Shown piece by piece: positions 24,284 through 58,283 of a DNA stretch of 64,000 bases. The position numbers and the translations under genes were made by a program. Each line of letters opens with the position of its first letter. Positions within the stretch are counted from its first letter, which is position 1. Below the pieces are notes generated by a model. It searched no databases. It saw only the letters and a list, made by a program, of their open reading frames with translations, and was not told the DNA's origin. Origin of the DNA: Microbacterium sp. CH12i (GTDB lineage: Bacteria > Actinomycetota > Actinomycetes > Actinomycetales > Microbacteriaceae); assembly GCF_000685355.1 (NCBI RefSeq), contig NZ_JHET01000004.1:62001-126000 (forward strand). The letters are read 5' to 3'.

Positions 24284-24881
24284 TCCTTGCTCCGATACAG
24301 ATGATATTTCGCGATGTACTGAACGACTCCGTCGGGCACGAGATACCAGACCGGCTGATCATCGCTCACACGCGCTCGGCATGCGTCGAGGAAATAGAAA
24401 GCGCAGGCACCTCTAGTTGGCTGACGTTTTCAGTCGGGAGGCCAGCTGTACTCAGAACGTGTCCTGGGCGAGAGACCGCGACGAAGTGGGCCAACTCCCA
24501 CAACTCATCATGGTCCCTCCAACTGAGAATTTGCGCTACGGCATCAGCTCCGGTGATGAAGAACAGTTCCGCATCCGGTCGCTCCGCCTTCAGATCACGA
24601 AGAGTGTCGATCGTGTAAGTCGGGCCTTGGCGATTGATGTCGACACGGCTCACGGTGAACTGCGGGTTGGATGCCGTGGCGATCACCGTCATCAGATAAC
24701 GATGCTCGCTCTGGGTGACGTTCGACTTCTGCCAGGGATGGCCAGTCGGAACAAACACAACCTCATCAAGGTCGAAGGAGTGCGCGACCTCGCTCGCCGC
24801 GACCAAGTGCCCGTGATGGATCGGGTCGAATGTCCCGCCCATCACTCCGATTCGCGGAGCGCGCGTGGTCGTGATCTCCAT
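24280..24881 (-). pseudogene. nadD: Nicotinate-nucleotide adenylyltransferase, frameshifted (probably a sequencing error)
   Basis: Makes deamido-NAD from nicotinate mononucleotide. The nucleotidyltransferase motif [12 protein letters not shown] is at 15-26, and SXTXXR-type ISST near residue 164. As read, the protein stops at 171 residues (THAERV). One extra base near 24383 gives [20 protein letters not shown], then QYIAKYHLY, the normal end, with a stop at 24280 that overlaps the next start by ATGA. That exact overlap supports the correction. Confidence 0.9.
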
Positions 24882-28925: not shown

Positions 28926-29189
28926 CTACTGTGCAGCAGCAGCGGCGACGATGTTGATGACCTTGCGGCCACCCTTCGCGCCGAACTCGACCGCGCCCGC
29001 TTCGAGAGCGAACAGCGTGTCGTCGCCTCCACGGCCGACGTTGACGCCGGGGTGGAAGTGGGTGCCGCGCTGGCGGACGATGATCTCGCCTGCGCTGACC
29101 TTCTGGCCGCCGAAGCGCTTCACGCCGAGGCGCTGGGCGTTAGAGTCACGACCGTTACGGGTGGAGCTTGCGCCCTTTTTGTGTGCCAT
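28926..29189 (-). CDS. rpmA: 50S ribosomal protein L27
   Basis: 87 residues. [17 protein letters not shown] is the full L27 N-terminus reaching toward the peptidyl-transferase centre; [10 protein letters not shown] and the [20 protein letters not shown] region follow. Start at 29189, 20 bases after the rplU stop. The upstream rplU is frameshifted in this sequence. Confidence 0.97.
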
Positions 29190-29209
29190 GTCCTGAGCCT
29201 CTTCTGTGC

Positions 29210-29517
29210 TTACTTGATGCCGGTGATCTTGACGCGGGTCAGGTCCTGACGGTGGCCCTGGCGCTTCTTGTAACCGGTCTTGTTCTTGAACTTCTGGATG
29301 ACGATCTTCGGGCCGCGGAGGTTAGCGATGACCTCAGCAGTCACCTTCACCTTCGCCAGCTTGTCGCGTCGGTGGTCACCGTTGCGCCGTCGACGAGAAG
29401 CACAGCGGCAAGCTCGATCTTCTCGCCCTGACCAGCCCGAACACGATCGAGCTGAACGATCGTGCCGACCTCGACCTTCTCCTGCCGTCCACCGGCGCGC
29501 ACAACTGCGTAAACCAC
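29210..29517 (-). pseudogene. rplU: 50S ribosomal protein L21, frameshifted (probably a sequencing error)
   Basis: From a GTG at 29517 the sequence reads [19 protein letters not shown], the L21 N-terminus, then [19 protein letters not shown]. After VTTDA the frame breaks; one G added near 29365 (GCGACAAG to GCGGACAAG) gives [19 protein letters not shown] and ends [21 protein letters not shown] at 29210, the normal end. Corrected length about 103 residues. An ATG at 29522 is in another frame and is not the start. Confidence 0.92.
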
Positions 29518-29663
29518 TTCATACCTGTTTCGTTGGGGAGCTCACGGCTCCGTAAATCTCGCGGAAAGACTTTGCTTGCGTGCGTCGCAAGTCTGACGGG
29601 TGCGAGCAAAAGGCTCTACTGCGCCACCCCGTGGGGACGGTTCAGTTCACGCACCAAGGGACA

Positions 29664-33719: not shown

Positions 33720-34124
33720 TCAATCGCTCTCTGTATGGGTTTCAGTTTCGGAATGAGTGGGGGTCATATCAGCGGGACGTCGTGCGTCCAACCGTGCCCC
33801 CATGATCGTCGCATATGCCCACATCCCACCAAAAACCAGCACGACAAGCAGGATGGCAGGAACGAAGAATGCCGACAGCGCGACGATGATCTGCAGCACC
33901 CAGCCGGCGCTGATCGCCCAGGGCTTGGTGATCATGCCCGCAACCGCCACCATCGCAAGCGCAACGACGCCACCTCCGACGATCGCCCACCACTGTTCGA
34001 CACCCGCAGGCAGCGACTTCAGGCCGAAGATCGTGAGTCCGACGAGGAGAACGACGATCGCCTCGAAGCCGAGCACGATCGGAGCAAGCTTCTGTACCAG
34101 GGTCCGGGGCGCGCGGGCGCTCAT
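33720..34124 (-). CDS. DUF4233 domain-containing membrane protein
   Basis: About 134 residues with three or four helices: VLGFEAIVVLLVGLTIFGL, GGGVVALAMVAVAGMI, and a pair near 85-110. The family is a small membrane protein typically encoded between folC and ndk in actinobacteria; its role is unknown. The ATG at 34124 overlaps the corrected folC stop by ATGA, so it is chosen over the upstream codon. Confidence 0.8.
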   Translation of the reverse strand: MSARAPRTLVQKLAPIVLGFEAIVVLLVGLTIFGLKSLPAGVEQWWAIVGGGVVALAMVAVAGMITKPWAISAGWVLQIIVALSAFFVPAILLVVLVFGGMWAYATIMGARLDARRPADMTPTHSETETHTESD

Positions 34125-35471
34125 GCCTGCCACCCGGACTTCCAGTCTTCTTCCTCAGCGAGGGCGATCGCCTCTCCGGCGAGCACCACCGACCCCGCGA
34201 TCACGACGCGCGTCGATCGGAGGATGCGGCCCACTCCCGCGCGGCATCCGCCGCATCGGCGAGTGAGGGGTGCACTGTGGCGCGATGCCCGGAACTTTCG
34301 ACGAGGTCGGCGATCACATCAGCATCGTTCGCCCGATCGGATGCCGGGGCGGTAGCGAACACGTGGGCAGTGCTCGGCGCGAGCGCCGCGATGATGCCCG
34401 CGGCGTCCTTATCGCCAAGGATGCCGAGCACGAGACCCCACTCGTCGAAATCGAGCTGTCGCTCAGTGACTGCGCGAGCGCTTTCGCGCCGTGCGGGTTG
34501 TGCGCAGCGTCAACGACCACAGTAGGTGCGATGCCGAGCAGCTGTAGCCGGCCCGGCGATGTCGCCCCCTGCAGCCCATCGGCGACGATGTCGTCGGCAA
34601 TGCGTTGCGTGCCGGCACCGATGAGCGATTCGACGGCCGCGATGGCCAGGGCCGCGTTGTGGCCCTGGTGGGCACCGTACATGGGCAGGTACTCCTCGAC
34701 GTACCCGCCAGCGACGCCTCGGATCGTCAGCAGCTGACCGCCCACCGCGAGTTTCTGCTCGGTGAGGCCGAATTCATCGCCCTCAAAAACGATGCTGGCG
34801 TGCTTTTCGGCGGCCATTCGACGAAGTACCTCTGCCACCTCTGGCTGCTGCTGGGCAGAGACCACGGCCGCGCCTTCCTTGATGATCCCGGCCTTGACGG
34901 TCGCGATCTCCGTAAGCGTGCCGCCGAGGCGATCGGCGTGGTCGATGTCGATAGGTGCGAACACGGCGACGTCGCCATCGGCGGTGTTGGTCGAATCCCA
35001 CTCGCCGCCCATGCCGACTTCGAGCACGAGGACATCGACCGGAGCATCCGCTGCCGCCACGAAAGCGAGCACGGTGAGCAACTCGAAGAACGTGAGCGGC
35101 TCGTCACCGGCGGCGGTAAGTTCTGCGTCGACAATGTCGACGAACGGCTCGATCTCGTCCCAGGCATCAGCGACCTCAGCATCGCCGATCGGCTCGCCGT
35201 CGATCATGATCCGCTCGGTGAAGCGCTCGAGGTGCGGGCTGGTGAACAGCCCGGTGCGCAGATCGTGTGCGCGCAGCAGGCTCTCGATCATGCGTGCAGT
35301 CGAGGTCTTGCCGTTGGTGCCGGTGATGTGCACGACCCGGTAGGTGCGCTGCGGGTCATCGAGGTACGCGAGGATGCGCGCGGTGCGCTCCTTGCGCGGC
35401 TGCACCCAACGCTCCCCTGCCCTGGAAAGCAACGTCTCGTAGACGGCATCGGCGCGACTGCGATCGCTCAT
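34121..35471 (-). pseudogene. folC: Bifunctional folylpolyglutamate/dihydrofolate synthase, two frameshifts (probably sequencing errors)
   Basis: Adds glutamate to folates. GTNGKTSTARM near residue 50 is the Mur-ligase P-loop; GGEWDSTN and VVVDAAHNPHGAKAL are family motifs. Two frames break: near 34453 (AGCTCG, one T short; resumes FDFDEWGLVLGILGDKDAAG) and near 34214 (CGACG, one A short; resumes TRVVIAGSVVLAGEAIALAE). With both repaired the stop falls at 34121, overlapping the DUF4233 ATG, and length is about 450, as expected. Start at 35471 overlaps the ileS stop. Confidence 0.9.
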
Positions 35472-38400
35472 GCGTTGATCTCCTCAGTGATGTTCGCGTC
35501 AATCGTGACGATGATCGGGGCCTTGCCGGAACCCAGTGCGCGTGCACCACTGATGTGCACCCCATTGCCGGGGCTCTTCACCTCATCGACGATCCGCTCC
35601 ATCTCTTCGGTCTCCTGCACGGCGAAGGCGATCGCGAGCGTTTCCGAGGCGATCAATTCGCCGTGCGCCTTCAGCGCGGCAGCCTGATCCGGGCCAGCAT
35701 TGAGCGCGAGAATAATGCGGTCGCTGACCTCGAGAGCGGCGTTCTTGCGCGCCTCCTGCACGACGCGGATCGCATCGCGTGCGATGCCTTCGGCCTCGAG
35801 CTCAGGAGTTGTCTCGGTGTCGAGCAGCACGAACCCACCGGTGGGAACGATGGCCAGTGCCTCGCCCTCCGGACGCCCGGTGGTCTCCAGCGCGAGGTCG
35901 TATTCGGATGGTTCCAGGGCAATGCCTCCGGCAGTCACAACACCGTCGGTTTCTAACCAGTCGCCGGATTTTGCCGCCTTGATCACGGTCTGGACGTTCT
36001 TACCCAGGCGCGGACCAGCGGCTCGGGCGTTGACGCTGAGACGGTGGCTGATGCCGTACTCGCCCGCTGTGGTCTCGGTGAGCGCGACCAGTTCAACCGA
36101 CTTCACGTTGAGCTCGTCACGCAGGATGTCCTCGAACTGTCCGAGCGATGCGGCCAATGGGGAGACCACCGTAAGACGCGCCAGTGGCAGACGCACGCGC
36201 AGCTTCTCTTTCTTGCGCAGCGCATTGCCGACGCTGGAGAGTTCTCGTACGGCATCCATCGCGTCGCGGATGTCGTCGGCAACCGGGAACGCCGAAGCAT
36301 CCGGCCAATCGGTCAGATGCACGCTGCGTCCACCGGTGAGGCCCTGCCAGACACGCTCGCTGACGAGCGGCACCAGCGGAGCAGCAACACGGCAGAGCGT
36401 CTCGAGCACCGTGTACAGCGTGTCGAACGCCTCAGTTCCGCCCTCGGCGCCGACCCAGAAGCGGTCGCGTGAGCGACGGATGTACCAGTTCGTCAGCACC
36501 TCAGCGAAGTCGCGCAAGCGCGAGGCAGCTGTCGTCGAATCAAGACCTTCAAGATCGGCCTGCACCTCGCGGACAAGTTCGCCGGTGCGAGCAAGGATGT
36601 AGCGGTCAAGGACATCGGTGGAGTCGGTGCGCCAGGTTGCCTCATAGCCGCCGTCGCCTGCCTCACCTGACGCGTTTGCATACGTCGCGAAGAAGTACCA
36701 CGAGCTCCACAGCGGCAACAGGAATTCGCGCACGCCGGCGCGGATGCCCTCCTCAGTGACAGAGAGGTTTCCGCCGCGCAGCACAGAGCTCGACATGAGG
36801 AACCAGCGCATGGCGTCTGATCCGTCACGGTCAAACACTTCGCTGACCGCGGGATAGTTCTGCAGCGACTTCGACATCTTGTATCCGTCGTTACCGAGCA
36901 CGATGCCGTGGCAGCTCACGCCGGTGAAGGCCGGGCGGTCAAACAGCGCGGTCGACAGTACGTGCATGACGTAGAACCAGCCGCGCGTCTGACCGATGTA
37001 CTCGACGATGAAGTCGGCTGGCGAGTGCGAGTCGAACCACTCCTGGTTCTCGAACGGATAGTGCACCTGCGCGTAGGGCATCGAGCCAGAGTCGAACCAG
37101 ACGTCGAAGACGTCCTCGATGCGGCGCATGGTGCTCTTGCCGGTGGGGTCATCCGGGTTCGGGCGCGTCAGGTCGTCGATGTACGGACGGTGCAGGTCAA
37201 TTTCACCCTCGGGGTTCCGCGGCAGCGTGCCGAAGTCACGTTCCATCTCCGCCAGCGAACCGTAGGCGTCGATGCGCGGGTACTCGGGGTCATCGCTCTT
37301 CCAGATCGGGATCGGTGAACCCCAGTAGCGGTTGCGGCTGATCGACCAATCGCGTGCGCCTTCCAGCCACTTGCCGAACTGGCCGTGCTTGACGTTCTCC
37401 GGCACCCAGGTGATCTGCTCGTTGTTCGCGAGCATGTCGTCCTTGATGTCCGTCACGCGGATGAACCAGCTCGAAACCGCCTTGTAGATCAGTGGGTTGC
37501 GGCAGCGCCAGCAGTGCGGGTAGGAGTGCTCGTAGCTCTGCAGGCGCACGAGCCGGCCGCTCTCGCGGATCAGTCGGACCAGGGGCGTGTTAGCGTCCAT
37601 CCACAGCTCGCCCGCGACATCCGTCACGTTCGGGAGGAAGCGTCCGCCGTCATCCAGCGACAGGATCGTGGGGATGCCGGCGGCACCTGCGACCCGCTGG
37701 TCGTCCTCACCGTAGGCGGGAGCCTGGTGGACGATGCCGGTGCCGTCGGTGATGGTGACGTAGTCGTCGACGAGGATGCGCCAGGCGTTCTCGGTGCCGT
37801 AGGTCTCTTCGTCGGCGTAGTAGTCGAAGATGCGGTCGTAGGTGACGTCCTGGAGTGCGGAGCCCAGGTGCGTCGCCTCGACGGCGGAGAGGGCATCCTC
37901 TGCGCTCTCATAACCGAGGTCCTTCGCGTAGCCGCCGACGAGTTCACGCGCGAGCAGGTAGCGATGAGCGGATGCCTCGACCGCAGCATCCTCGCTGCCA
38001 GCGATCTGGTGCACGTCGGCTGCGCCCGCGGGCCCTGCGGGAAGAACGACGTACTCGATCTCGGGTCCCACGGCGAGCGCGAGGTTCGTCGGGAGAGTCC
38101 AGGGTGTTGTCGTCCACGCCAGCGCACGGACCGCGGTGAGGCCGAGGGATTCGGCCTTCGCGCCGGTGAGCGGGAAAGTGACGGTCACCGAGGGATCCTG
38201 ACGCATCTGGTAGACGTCATCGTCCATGCGCAGCTCATGGGCGCTGAGCGGGGTCTCGTCGCGCCAACAGTACGGCAGCACGCGGTAGCCCTCGTACGCG
38301 AGCTCCTTGTCGTACAGCGTCTTGAATGCCCAGAGCACGCTCTCCATGTAGCCGAGGTCGAGCGTCTTGTAGCCGCGCTCGAAGTCAACCCAGCGTGCTT

Positions 38401-51310: not shown

Positions 51311-51338
51311 TTGATATCATGCTTCTATATTGATATCA
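51311..51338. promoter_or_regulatory. Paired palindromes, probable FitAB operator
   Basis: TTGATATCA at 51311-51319 and again at 51330-51338, each containing the perfect palindrome TGATATCA, spaced 19 bases centre to centre (about two helical turns). The second copy touches the AGGAGG ribosome site of the antitoxin gene, so binding would also hide it. Confidence 0.75.
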
Positions 51339-51350
51339 GGAGGTGATGGG

Positions 51351-51584
51351 ATGTCCGCACTCACTGTTCGAAATCTTTCTGACGAGACACATCGTGCGCT
51401 GAAGGCACGCGCAGAGAGCAACCATCGAAGCACCGAAGCCGAGGTCAGGGCGATCCTCGACGCGGCTGTCGCGCCACGAGTCAAGATCGGCTCGTTGCTC
51501 ACAGCAATCGGCCAAAGCGTCGGTGGCGTTGAGCTCGACTTCGACCGCAACGCCGAGACTCGCACCCCAGTGAACTTCTCATGA
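51351..51584 (+). CDS. fitA: FitA-type ribbon-helix-helix antitoxin
   Basis: 77 residues. SALTVRNLSDETHRALKARA is the RHH core of the FitA/Arc-type family, with AEVRAILDAAVAP as second helix. The C-terminal half binds the toxin. The ATG at 51351 follows an AGGAGG site (51338-). Its end overlaps the toxin start (ATGA). RHH dimers side by side on paired palindromes would repress the operon. Confidence 0.85.
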   Translation: MSALTVRNLSDETHRALKARAESNHRSTEAEVRAILDAAVAPRVKIGSLLTAIGQSVGGVELDFDRNAETRTPVNFS

Positions 51585-52006
51585 TCTTGCTCGACACAAA
51601 TGTGATCTCAGAGCCGATGCGTCCGCATCCAGACCCGGCTGTTGTTGCATGGCTAGACCGGCAGAGCGCAGACACTCTGTACCTCACCACAATCTCCCTC
51701 GCTGAAATCAGGTATGGACTCTCGCTGCTTCCGGAAGGAAGCAGGCGAACGCAGCTTCGTGAGAGGTTCGAGGATGAGTTGCTCCCCCACTTCGCCGGGA
51801 GGATCGTCGGATTCAATGAAGCCGCGAGCAGCGCGTACGCATCGCTTCGCTCGACAGCGCGACGACAAGGCGTCTCGCTCTCGGACTTTGACGCGCTCAT
51901 AGCCGCCGTCGCCACCAGCACACGACTCACCATGGCGACAAGAGATACAACACCCTTTATGGCGGCCGGCCTCATGGTTATTAACCCGTGGTTCGCTGAG
52001 GTGTGA
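51581..52006 (+). CDS. fitB: FitB/VapC-type PIN-domain toxin
   Basis: 141 residues of the PIN domain. The first acidic residue is in ILLDTNVISEPMRP (LLDTN), a second cluster in LAEIRYGL near 47-54, and the last in SDFDALIAAVA near 97-107, giving the set of carboxylates that hold Mg2+. Such toxins cut RNA. The gene is at the end of a two-gene unit, just before hairpin repeat C. Confidence 0.88.
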   Translation: MILLDTNVISEPMRPHPDPAVVAWLDRQSADTLYLTTISLAEIRYGLSLLPEGSRRTQLRERFEDELLPHFAGRIVGFNEAASSAYASLRSTARRQGVSLSDFDALIAAVATSTRLTMATRDTTPFMAAGLMVINPWFAEV

Positions 52007-54045: not shown

Positions 54046-54896
54046 TCAGATCATGCTCTTCGTGTGCCACACAGTCTTGATCTCGGTAAATGCGCCGATC
54101 CGCTCCGGAGAAGCGGTGACCTCTCCTGGAGTGAGCACGCGCTTGAGTGTGTCGGCAGCAGCTATCTGCAGGTCGACCCACTCGAGCGCACCAGCACCGG
54201 CGAGGTCGAGAGCGTTGACATCGGCGTGCGAAGCAAGCCACGGAGCGATCTCTGCCGGCGAGCCAGTGAGAACGTTCACGACTCCCCCTGGCACGTCGCT
54301 CGTCGCGAGCACCTCGGCGAAGCTGATCGCAGAGAGCGGATGCTGTTCACTGGCGAGCACGACGACAGCGTTACCAGCGACCAAGGCCGGAGCGACGACG
54401 GAGACGAGCCCAAGCAGCGCAGAGTCCTGCGGCGCGATAATCGCAACGACGCCAGTGGGTTCCGGAACGAGATATTGAAGTACGGGCCAGACACCGGGTT
54501 GGCGTTGCCGGCGACCTGCGCGTACTTGTCGCACCAGCCCGCGTACCAAACCCAGAGGTCGACGGCTTCATCAACCTGTGCGCCGGCAGCAGCGGACGAG
54601 ACACCCTCTTGGGCGACGATCTCGTCAATGAACTGCGCACGGCGCCCCTCGAGCACCTCGGCAACACGGTAGAGCACTTGCCCGCGGTTGTACGCGGTGG
54701 CACCGGACCAGCCCTTGACCGCCGCGCGAGCGGCGACGACGGCATCCCGAGCATCCTTGCGAGAGCCCTTCGCGGCGTTGGCGAGGAACGTGCCTTTCGC
54801 CGAAAGCACCTCGTAGGTGCGACCAGACTCGCTACGCGGGAACGCACCGCCAATGGCGAGCTTGTATGTCTTCGGCACTGCCAATCGCTTGCTCAT
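54046..54896 (-). pseudogene. Half-length aldehyde dehydrogenase without active-site region, frameshifted
   Basis: Reads as the N-terminal half of an aldehyde dehydrogenase: FPRSESGRTYEVLSAKG, WYAGWCDKYAQVAG, and, one frame over, VPEPTGVVAIIAPQDSALLG. The repair is one G near 54458 (TCGTTCC to TCGGTTCC). Corrected length is about 283 residues. The glycine motif region and catalytic cysteine of full-length enzymes are absent; it ends TEIKTVWHTKSMI. Overlaps the full-length dehydrogenase upstream (ATGA). It may be a partner without catalysis; see findings. Confidence 0.85.
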
Positions 54897-56335
54897 GCTG
54901 AGGCCCCCTTCAGGTAAGCGGTGAGACCATGTCGGCCGCCCTCGCGGCCGTATCCGGATTCCTTGTATCCGCCGAACGGGCTGGCGGGATCGAAGCGGTT
55001 GAACGTATTCGCCCAGATGACGCCGGCACGCAGCCGGTCGGCGACCGCGAGGATGCGCGACCCTTTGTCCGTCCAGATTCCCGCGGACAGCCCATAGGGA
55101 GTGTTGTTCGCCTTGGCGATCGCCTCGGCGGGTGTGCGGAACGTCAGCACCGAGAGCACCGGCCCGAAGACCTCGTCGCGGGCAATGCGGTGGGATGCTT
55201 CGACGCCCGTGAAGATCGTCGGAGCAAACCAGAAACCCTTTTCCGGGATGGCGCAGTCGGCCGTCCAGCGCTCGGCGCCCTCCGCTTCACCGATGTCGCT
55301 GAGCTCGCGAATGCGGGCAAGCTGGGCGGCGGAGTTGATCGCACCGATGTCGGTGTTCTTGTCGAGCGGGTCGCCCAGGCGAAGAGTCGAAAGACGCGAC
55401 TTCAGGCGATCGACGACCTCATCGTGAATTGACTCCTGCACCAGCAGGCGACTGCCCGCGCAGCAGACGTGCCCCTGGTTGAAGAAGATTCCGTTGACGA
55501 TGCCTTCGAGCGCCTGCTCGAGCGGCGCGTCGTCGAAAACGATGTTCGCCGCCTTGCCGCCGAGCTCGAGCGTGACCTTCTTGTCAGTGCCGGCGACTGC
55601 GCGAGCGATATCCCGACCCACGCCGGTAGAGCCAGTGAAGGCGACCTTGTTGACGTCGGGGTGACGCACGAGCGTCGCTCCGGTCGAGCCTGCACCGGTG
55701 ACAATGTTCACGACGCCGGCCGGAAGATCTGCCTGCTGCAGGATCTCGGCAAAGATCAGCGCCGTGAGCGGCGTCGTCTCGGCGGGCTTGAGCACGACAG
55801 TGTTGCCGGCAGCGAGAGCCGGAGCGATCTTCCACGCCAGCATCAGCAGCGGGAAGTTCCAGGGGATGATCTGGGCGGCAACACCGAGCGCACGAGGATT
55901 GGCACCGAGACCTGCGTAGTCGAGCTTGTCTGCCCAGCCTGCGTAGTAGAAGAACCAGGATGCGACGAGCGGAACGTCTACGTCGCGGCTCTCCTTGATC
56001 GGCTTGCCGTTATCAAGGCTTTCGGCCACAGCGAGCTCACGGGCGCGCTCCTGAACCAGACGCGCGATGCGGAAGAGGTACTTGCCGCGGTCACGTCCGC
56101 TCATCTTCGACCAGGTCTTCTCGTACGCGCGGCGCGCAGCGGCGACAGCACGGTCGATGTCCTCGTCGTTCGCACCCGCGATCTCCGCGATGTGTGATTC
56201 ATCGGAGGGCGAGATGGTGCTGAAGCTCTTACCTGAGCCTTCAACGAACTCTCCGTCGATGAACAGGCCGTAGCTGTCGCGCAGGTTCAGGATCGCCTTT
56301 GATTCGGGCGCCGGGGCATATTCCAGGAATGACAT
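54893..56335 (-). CDS. Aldehyde dehydrogenase
   Basis: 480 residues, full length. VTLELGGKAANIVFDDA gives the glutamate general base, and GHVCCAGSRL the catalytic cysteine. It follows deoC by 14 bases, so its natural substrate may be acetaldehyde or another aldehyde from deoxyribose 5-phosphate breakdown. The start is ATG at 56335. Its stop overlaps the half-length dehydrogenase start. Confidence 0.93.
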   Translation of the reverse strand: MSFLEYAPAPESKAILNLRDSYGLFIDGEFVEGSGKSFSTISPSDESHIAEIAGANDEDIDRAVAAARRAYEKTWSKMSGRDRGKYLFRIARLVQERARELAVAESLDNGKPIKESRDVDVPLVASWFFYYAGWADKLDYAGLGANPRALGVAAQIIPWNFPLLMLAWKIAPALAAGNTVVLKPAETTPLTALIFAEILQQADLPAGVVNIVTGAGSTGATLVRHPDVNKVAFTGSTGVGRDIARAVAGTDKKVTLELGGKAANIVFDDAPLEQALEGIVNGIFFNQGHVCCAGSRLLVQESIHDEVVDRLKSRLSTLRLGDPLDKNTDIGAINSAAQLARIRELSDIGEAEGAERWTADCAIPEKGFWFAPTIFTGVEASHRIARDEVFGPVLSVLTFRTPAEAIAKANNTPYGLSAGIWTDKGSRILAVADRLRAGVIWANTFNRFDPASPFGGYKESGYGREGGRHGLTAYLKGASA

Positions 56336-56349
56336 GTTTCTTGTTCCCT

Positions 56350-57351
56350 TTAGTCGATCGTGACGTAGTCGGGGCCGGAGTAGTGGCCGGTGGTCATCTT
56401 CTGACGCTGCAGGAGCACGTCGTTCAGCAGGCTCGAGGCACCGAAGCGGAACAGGTGCGGCTGCAGCCATTCCTCCCCCGCCGTCTCGGCGACGGTGACG
56501 ATGTACTTGATCGCGTCTTTGGAGGTGCGGATGCCGCCGGCCGGCTTTACGCCGATCTTTTCGCCGGTCGCCCGGTACCAGTCACGTACGGTCTCGAGCA
56601 TCAGCAGTGTCGTCGGCAACGTGGCCGCAGGCTGCACCTTGCCGGTGGACGTCTTGATGAAGTCCCCTCCGGCGAGGATGCCGAGCCACGATGCACGCTT
56701 GATGTTGTCGTAGGTGTTCAGCTCGCCCGTTTCGAGGATGACCTTGAGCGAGGCAGAGGTGCCGTCCTCACGACGGCAGGCTTCTTTCACGGCGGCGATC
56801 TGATCGAAGACGAGCCCGTAGCGGCCAGAGAGGAATGCGCCACGGTCGATCACCATGTCGATCTCGTCGGCACCTGCGGCAACGGCCTCTGCGGTATCGG
56901 CAAGCTTGATCGCGAGCGACGACCGCCCGCTGGGGAATGCGGTCGCGACGGCTGCGACCGAGATCTTGCCGTCGTCCGGATCGCCGTGCAACGCACCGAG
57001 AGCCTCGACGGCGTGGCCGACCATGTCACCGTAGACGCAGACAGCTGCGACGAGCGGAGTGGAAGGGTCTGCGGCATCCGGCGTCTTGGCCTTGGAAACG
57101 AGGGATCGCACCTTGCCGGGAGTGTCCGAGCCCTCCAGAGTCGTCAGGTCGATCAGCGAGATGATCTTGTCGAGCGCCCAGGCTTTGGACGTCGTCTTGA
57201 TCGAGCGCGTGCCGAGGCCGGCAGCGCGCTGCTCGAGACCGGTGGCATCGACGCCGGGAAGTCCGTGCAGGAAGCGCCTCAGTGTGGCGTCATCGGGCTC
57301 TGCGCCCAGCACATCCACCGCTGAGCGGCGGGAGAGTTCTTTGGTAGTCAT
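56350..57351 (-). CDS. deoC: Deoxyribose-phosphate aldolase
   Basis: 333 residues, longer than the common 220-260 form. The Schiff-base lysine is in DFIKTSTGK near residue 235, with the second lysine in GVKPAGGIRTSKDAIK. It splits 2-deoxyribose 5-phosphate into acetaldehyde and glyceraldehyde 3-phosphate. The ATG overlaps the regulator stop (ATGA). Together with the dehydrogenases it forms a route from nucleoside sugar to acids. Confidence 0.92.
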   Translation of the reverse strand: MTTKELSRRSAVDVLGAEPDDATLRRFLHGLPGVDATGLEQRAAGLGTRSIKTTSKAWALDKIISLIDLTTLEGSDTPGKVRSLVSKAKTPDAADPSTPLVAAVCVYGDMVGHAVEALGALHGDPDDGKISVAAVATAFPSGRSSLAIKLADTAEAVAAGADEIDMVIDRGAFLSGRYGLVFDQIAAVKEACRREDGTSASLKVILETGELNTYDNIKRASWLGILAGGDFIKTSTGKVQPAATLPTTLLMLETVRDWYRATGEKIGVKPAGGIRTSKDAIKYIVTVAETAGEEWLQPHLFRFGASSLLNDVLLQRQKMTTGHYSGPDYVTID

Positions 57352-58283
57352 CGTTCCTCCAACAATGCTCGGGCTGTGGTCTCGTCGGTCACCAGAACGC
57401 TGCACAGGCCGCTGGTCACGACTGTACGCGCGATGTCATGTTTTGCGGCACCCGCGGTGACGAAAATCGAATGCTTCACGGCACGCAAACGATCGAGGCT
57501 CACCCCGACGGTTCGCGCGTCGAGCTGCGCATCGACAATATTTCCATCCGCGTCGATATAGCGACCAAGCACATCGCCAACGGCGCCGCGACGCGCAAGC
57601 TCTTCGACATCGGCGGGCTTCAGGTAGCCGTTCTCAACATGAGCCGAGGATGCGTCGGCCGGGCCTGCTGAGAAGAGATAAGTCTGCGCTTCTGCCGCCT
57701 GCTCAAGGATTGCGGAGACGGTGCGATCGGCTTCGATCGCCTGCTTCGTCTCAACACGCTCCAGGATGGCGGGGCTCGGCAGCAGCATCGCCTGGCCGCC
57801 GGCGCGCTGCGCAATGGTCATGGCGAGGCTTGCCGCACCCCCGGAACGGCGGTTGAGGCTCACGCCACCGTTGAGCTGCACGACGGTCACACCGTGCGCC
57901 CATCTCTCTGGGAGAGCCTCTGCGACAGCAGTGAGTGTCCGGCCCCAGCTGATGCCGAGAGTGCGGGGCACTGGGCGGTGAGCTGCGAGGTAGTCCGCGG
58001 CTGCCTGAGCTACGCGGTCGAGAGTTGTGCTCGCATCATCCGGCGTGGGAACGACGATCGCATCTGCGAGGCCGAAGCGCTCGGTGAGTTCACGCTCGAG
58101 GCCGAGCTTGCGGGCACGTGGGTGCACGATCTCGATCCGTACGATGCCCTTCTCCCGGGCCTGGGTCAGGAGGCGACCGACCTTCCAGCGAGAGATTTTC
58201 AGAAGGGCGCCGATCTCGTCTTGCGTCTTGGCCTCGTCGTAATACAACTCTGCAACTCGCACGGTGAGCAAATCTTCTTCCAT
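57348..58283 (-). CDS. SorC-family (DeoR-type) transcriptional regulator
   Basis: 311 residues. The N-terminus has a helix-turn-helix (TQDEIGALLKISRWKVGRLL, about 19-38) and the rest is the sugar-binding domain of the SorC family (ISWGRTLTAVAEALPERW, NGGVSLNRR). It should sense a phosphorylated sugar, probably deoxyribose 5-phosphate. GGGAGG precedes the ATG at 58283. First gene of the deoC operon. The name deoR is inferred from context. Confidence 0.85.
   Translation of the reverse strand: MEEDLLTVRVAELYYDEAKTQDEIGALLKISRWKVGRLLTQAREKGIVRIEIVHPRARKLGLERELTERFGLADAIVVPTPDDASTTLDRVAQAAADYLAAHRPVPRTLGISWGRTLTAVAEALPERWAHGVTVVQLNGGVSLNRRSGGAASLAMTIAQRAGGQAMLLPSPAILERVETKQAIEADRTVSAILEQAAEAQTYLFSAGPADASSAHVENGYLKPADVEELARRGAVGDVLGRYIDADGNIVDAQLDARTVGVSLDRLRAVKHSIFVTAGAAKHDIARTVVTSGLCSVLVTDETTARALLEER

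Follow-up and report, generated by a model that had tools for sequence, protein, structure and literature searches.

Classic aldehyde dehydrogenases (ALDHs) form dimers in which the flap of one protomer lies against the other, and human ALDH16A1 has a two-part build. Bacterial ALDH16 is represented by the protein of a Loktanella sp. (PDB 6mvr, 6mvs, 6mvt and 6mvu; Liu and Tanner 2019, as cited in the available portions of PMC8160307 and PMC10650815), which joins a catalytic ALDH part to a second, non-functional domain of the cofactor type; the tertiary contacts of ALDH16 mimic the quaternary contacts of other ALDHs (excerpt of PMC8160307). The human protein is described as a pseudoenzyme that lacks the catalytic residues, and a table in a 2023 review gives both its oligomeric state and its substrate as 'unknown' (PMC10650815, in the text available).

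The window analyzed here comprises 64,000 nucleotides of Microbacterium sp. CH12i (contig NZ_JHET01000004.1), and all coordinates are counted from its first base. Four genes follow one another on its minus strand: a regulator with a Pfam match to the PF04198 sugar-binding domain (57348–58283), which we take to be of the SorC/DeoR type; deoC, for deoxyribose-phosphate aldolase (56350–57351; 333 aa, PF01791 match); a catalytic ALDH of the ALDH16 N-terminal type (54893–56335; an intact open reading frame of 480 aa); and a half-length pseudo-ALDH of the ALDH16 C-terminal-domain type (54046–54896), which is frame-broken in the assembly and gives 283 aa when read through. The regulator stop and the deoC start overlap by four bases, and 14 bases separate the end of deoC from the catalytic gene downstream on the same strand. 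The four-base overlap of the two ALDH genes beside deoC, reported in the first-pass annotation, is correctly placed: the catalytic gene stops, and the short gene starts, within an ATGA at 54893–54896. In 123 of 183 split loci a start codon could lie over the end of the catalytic gene in this way, and translational coupling of the two genes through the overlap is likely.

As in the Loktanella protein, a catalytic ALDH part is accompanied by a second, non-functional domain of the cofactor type, both parts being matched by sequence, and the fused relatives of the pair likewise adjoin deoC and, in those examined, have catalytic parts with a short flap hairpin. Unlike bacterial ALDH16, however, the window's two parts are separate genes and separate chains. 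Because the single polypeptide of ALDH16 is absent, the pair, by sequence, is a two-chain variant of ALDH16 and not ALDH16 in the strict sense. Human ALDH16A1 shares the family name with the pair and is likened to it by name and description, not by sequence; whereas the human protein has lost its catalytic residues, the catalytic part in the window has them all.

Division of ALDH features between the two chains

The catalytic chain (P0002) matches the Pfam family PF00171 (Aldedh) at 542.5 bits, against a curated cut-off of 23. Its best match among PDB sequences with phmmer is 6mvr, at 534.4 bits for the whole chain; residues 11–478 of 6mvr alone give 477.7 bits, and the next protein scores 426.1 bits. 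Numbered on the window's catalytic chain, the residues Cys291, Glu257, Asn160, Lys183 and Glu388 are all present, so that the catalytic partner described earlier stands. Asn160, Lys183, Glu257 and Cys291 are invariant in all 195 unique catalytic sequences (made up of 173 split ones of the actinobacterial type, 1 other split, 12 fused from the phylum of genome G328 and 9 fused proteobacterial); Glu388 and Phe390 are present in 194, the remaining sequence having a gap. The best reading of the long chain is that of a predicted active NAD-dependent aldehyde dehydrogenase.

The two pieces of the short gene also match Aldedh, at 60.5 and 76.5 bits (same cut-off), and these matches stop at profile position 216 of 461, which bears out the earlier statement that this protein has no catalytic cysteine region. 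Its best PDB match is again 6mvr (phmmer, 191.7 bits for the whole chain). Compared as first proposed with the C-terminal domain of bacterial ALDH16, the short chain aligns best with 6mvr residues 500–762 at 147.5 bits, the next different protein reaching 108.2 bits. The suggestion of an ALDH16 whose parts are separate chains is thus supported, each chain finding its best match in a different part of the same protein.

For the fold of the short chain, an AlphaFold2 model was made of an intact orthologue (L060; pLDDT 95.1, pTM 0.92). Foldseek placed three ALDH16 entries on top (TMq 0.88–0.89), with the ordinary ALDHs shown at 0.80–0.83, and VIA-align superposed the model on ALDH16 residues 495–765/766 at 1.6–1.8 Å and 38% identity. 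The VIA-align Z scores of 36–37 are tied between ALDH16 and ordinary ALDHs, the first row being the ordinary ALDH 4nmj; because the tie lies within one Z unit, fold alone leaves the two undecided, and we took from this alignment no more than the residues it spans and the position of the terminal strand. Model residues 6–283 align to 1bxs residues 14–498, from the start of an ordinary ALDH through to its extreme C-terminus. The short chain therefore corresponds to an ALDH minus its catalytic domain and not to a simple N-terminal half: the description 'half-length' holds for its length and for the absent catalytic domain, but a plain half would lack the C-terminal beta strand that is kept.

The earlier statement that cofactor-half features are retained likewise holds for the fold but fails for the residues that contact the cofactor. 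Trp159 and Lys183 are kept in none of 82 short or C-domain sequences (60 taken at random from 173 split, and 22 others), and Asn160 and Glu257 in one each. The window's pieces and the orthologue model together have the second unit of ALDH16 type, a Rossmann fold and a beta-flap with no catalytic domain. We read the short chain, as the best account of these alignments and the model, as a putative pseudoenzyme subunit in which the Rossmann-like fold and the whole beta-flap, made up of the hairpin and the C-terminal strand, are retained, while the catalytic domain and the residues that bind the cofactor are gone. Its strong relatives in the loci read are either half-length proteins encoded next to a catalytic gene or the second part of a fusion; full-length close homologues, which would have spoken against the earlier proposal, were not seen among these loci.

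Ordinary ALDHs (ALDH1/2, betaine ALDH, the C-terminal domain of ALDH1L1) share the fold of the catalytic chain, and the short chain aligns to them over its NAD half and terminal strand; in these enzymes a single chain holds both active site and flap, whereas the window's pair divides the two. The flap stretch is 29–31 residues long in 12 of 12 catalytic chains versus 39–46 in 13 of 13 ordinary ALDHs (several of them near-copies), a deficit of about ten flap-hairpin residues, while in the window's short chain the hairpin takes up 41 residues and the chain finishes with the strand AFTEIKTVWH. Over the larger set, 161 of 171 split catalytic chains have a 13-residue flap spacer, and 166 of 171 split short chains have one of 21 residues.

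The chain ends show the same division. From the start of the SGxGRE motif, 18–22 residues remain in 7 of 7 split catalytic chains versus 25–43 in 13 of 13 ordinary ALDHs. The tail after SGxGREGG is at most 18 residues in 112 of 171 split catalytic chains, 19–30 in 11, and more in 48, where it extends to as many as 72 residues and is rich in Ala, Ser and Lys in those displayed. A strand-like pattern at the expected place fits one of the 171 tails, although the 48 tails of more than 30 residues might still hold a strand; a looser K[TSN][VIL] pattern occurs somewhere in the tail of 19. At the end of the short chain, a K[TNS][VI]W pattern is present in 169 of 174 split sequences and, in the two fused sets, in 12 of 12 and 4 of 9, the fused misses being uninformative because those sequences were cut to the BLAST match. 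In the window's catalytic chain both the flap hairpin and the C-terminal strand of ordinary ALDHs are missing. In these alignments the losses are complementary: the catalytic chain is without the dimerization flap, and the short chain is without the active-site and cofactor residues and retains flap and strand. Since the flap of a classic ALDH packs on the partner, a flapless catalytic chain should need a partner that brings one.

Distribution of the pair and of its fused relatives

The window's class is represented by 296 genomes, that of CH12i among them, and a profile of the short chain finds matches at 1e-30 in 179. Twelve with weak matches (1e-30 to 1e-46), taken for ordinary ALDHs, were set aside, leaving 167; none of the twelve has the catalytic gene at 1e-180. 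That gene is found at 1e-180 in 165 of the 296 genomes, and all 165 also have the short gene, a pairing too frequent to be chance. In the two further genomes with a short gene (G109 and G132), it starts 285 and 682 bases from the contig start, and part of a catalytic gene can be seen in G132 (L043). In G273 there are three matches to the catalytic gene and four to the short-chain profile. The pair appears dispensable within the genus, as 8 of 22 congeners have no strong short-gene match. Both genes are kept by 24 genomes of family code f41 that measure 1.2–2.2 Mb, an argument that the pair pays for itself even where the genome is reduced.

Of 167 split loci, counting duplicates and the window, 166 have the catalytic gene upstream of the short gene, with at least 420 of its 480 residues covered in 161. 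Loci with no full catalytic gene before the short one are L132, L085, L043 and L167, which run into a locus or contig end, L053, where it is in two frames, and L163 (G166:C168). The last is an exception, with 111 catalytic residues before the short gene and no deoC despite available room, away from the locus end; its genome has a second, complete set (L162) on another contig. Both units share one open reading frame in none of the 167 split loci and in none of 20 loci from the phylum sample of genome G327, which appears to be the window's own phylum (L259, from G328, was left out of the 20).

The deoC gene is a regular neighbor. Among 80 named loci, mostly from close relatives, it directly precedes the pair in all 76 with room for it; among 40 loci picked across families of the class, it is upstream in 38 of the 39 with room and directly so in 36, being 1.7 kb away in L187 and 1.4 kb away in L182. 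In the G327 phylum sample deoC is upstream in 18 of 20 loci; the other two, L247 and L263, are on short contigs and show none, and in L257 a gap of 1.4 kb separates the catalytic and short genes. G327 itself (L087) is probably an actinobacterium; G471 in its phylum sample and G054 in the window's class sample share match coordinates.

Fused forms are found outside this group. A tblastn search at 1e-25 gave matches in 145 plasmid records, of which ten regions were read, nine proteobacterial and one from Nonomuraea. In each of the nine annotated proteobacterial loci, deoC is immediately followed by a single fused ALDH16 gene of 2.3–2.4 kb, and the Nonomuraea region has the split form. The phylum of G328 (a sample of 121 genomes) yielded 12 fused genes and one split pair, besides the pair in G328; deoC is upstream of the fused gene in 9 of the 12, within 400 bases in 6, and the stretches read of L230, L232 and L234 show none. 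The deoC neighborhood is therefore common to the actinobacterial split form, the fused form of proteobacterial plasmids and the fused form of the G328 phylum.

Two genomes of the G328 sample are of separate note. G328 itself, a MAG with a contig titled Fimbriimonadaceae, has a fused ALDH16 and a split pair of actinobacterial type on different contigs (L259/L108 and L235), a combination that points to contamination or transfer. In G347 the split pair (L233) is 64% and 52% identical to the window's two chains and is not close to the actinobacterial pairs; its deoC matches in two frames.

Quick trees were built without the Loktanella sequence and with some long outgroup branches; they do not tell fusion from fission. 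For the catalytic part, a split clade (support 98; 34 rows of actinobacterial type plus L233) and a fused clade (99) are sisters, and together they are separated from 13 ordinary ALDHs with support 100. For the second part, the fused clade has support 99 and the split clade only 66, with 100 against the NAD halves of catalytic chains.

The frame break of the short gene

The short gene, read from 54896 to 54046, occupies two frames that meet at 54468. At the break (54467–54468, minus strand) the window is one base shorter than all nine relatives aligned there, and the frame of the relatives is unbroken; a programmed frameshift was considered and rejected, since these nine are continuous in frame at the site. 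A strong short-gene match with no inner stops is present in 14 of 22 congeners. On the two sides of the break, compared with five relatives, dN is 0.026–0.069 and dS is 0.73–1.52 (dN/dS about 0.02–0.08), which implies either that purifying selection acted until very recently or that the break is a sequencing error.

Other parts of the assembly bear on this choice. The window stretches 24286–24869, 28938–29628 and 34124–35579 match open frames of genomes G005 and G014 in two or three frames, suggesting further indels, or, for some of them, shadow frames. In a family search three other ALDH-family genes of the CH12i genome (G000) lie in adjacent pieces, as if frame-broken (C2:51118–52514, C2:36605–37313 and C8:44051–45441). 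Together these point to an indel-rich assembly, and thus probably to an assembly error in the short gene; on the sequence evidence the break is probably a sequencing error or very recent. That the pair is as described and the short gene is truly disrupted in CH12i by a recent mutation is rather unlikely: the assembled sequence itself speaks for it, as does a site that is not a long homopolymer, but it has to be set against the multi-frame stretches, shadow frames or not, and the three ALDH-family genes in pieces.

Candidate function of the pair

DeoC converts deoxyribose 5-phosphate to glyceraldehyde 3-phosphate and acetaldehyde (PMC6365646, in the portion available). We consider it quite likely that the pair is an obligate two-chain ALDH16 that oxidizes this acetaldehyde; homology, gene order, co-occurrence, residue losses and the complementary loss of the flap are its observed basis, and from them we infer the assembly and the substrate. 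The L163 exception and the long catalytic tails lower this confidence very slightly. The short chain would stand in for the second protomer of the classic ALDH dimer by placing its flap against the long chain's catalytic domain, and two such pairs could form an alpha2beta2 particle resembling the ALDH16 dimer. The short chain would thereby hold the catalytic chain in an active, ALDH16-like particle, and a dedicated NAD-dependent ALDH encoded in the deoC operon would turn the acetaldehyde from DeoC into acetate.

A wider proposal, put forward tentatively and with somewhat less than even confidence, is that oxidizing the acetaldehyde of the DeoC pathway is the basic role of ALDH16, and that throughout Actinomycetota the enzyme may be an obligate heteromer: a separate pseudoenzyme chain would supply the lost flap in trans and perhaps hold DeoC for direct transfer of acetaldehyde.

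A tethered model was made for L188, whose catalytic and short genes were read through their single TGA as Trp; it has a pLDDT of 80.3 and a pTM of 0.60, and rests on an alignment of 16 rows and a tether shorter than the linker of the fused proteins in that alignment. This low-confidence model gave no whole-length superposition on ALDH16 6mvr (about 22 Å rmsd, TM 0.53–0.54), and it does not count in favor of the two-chain reading. Its failure to dock would suit a short chain that is an independent regulator or chaperone of deoxynucleoside catabolism and forms no stable complex with the catalytic chain, and pseudoenzymes can serve as allosteric regulators or scaffolds (PMC10650815, in the text available). 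We find this improbable, however, given that the two units are one polypeptide in the sister clade, that the two genes co-occur strictly, and that the flap missing from the catalytic chain is the very part kept in the short one.

The short chain might instead be an adaptor that docks DeoC to the ALDH for channeling of acetaldehyde, with the ALDH16-type packing secondary. Acetaldehyde is toxic and volatile, and DeoC is the usual upstream neighbor of split and fused forms alike, but a shared pathway suffices to explain that gene order, and we regard such an adaptor as very improbable. As a general account, the view of the short gene as a degenerating copy of its catalytic neighbor—a pseudogene that has survived by chance, with the break in CH12i as its normal state—is refuted by its occurrence in all 165 genomes that have the catalytic gene, by the open frames of every congener with a strong match and by the low dN/dS on both sides of the break.

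With the pair taken as a two-chain ALDH16, the shared deoC neighborhood points to acetaldehyde released from deoxyribose 5-phosphate as a specific substrate that can be tested. The split form also makes the role of the extra ALDH16 domain directly testable, as the pseudo-domain can be added or omitted in vitro, which is less simple with a fused protein. The available portions of PMC6365646 and PMC9007349 name no aldehyde dehydrogenase for the deoC pathway, and the search, which the main ALDH16 paper lay outside and which is no proof that the matter is unpublished, returned no paper on a split ALDH16 or its link to deoC. Within the literature so covered, and with ALDH16 itself already known, what appears to be new here is the split two-gene form, recurrent in actinobacteria, and the deoC link.

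Elsewhere in the window, a gene for a FitA-like ribbon-helix-helix protein is followed by a PIN-domain gene (51330–52006); by their sequences these look like an ordinary toxin-antitoxin pair.
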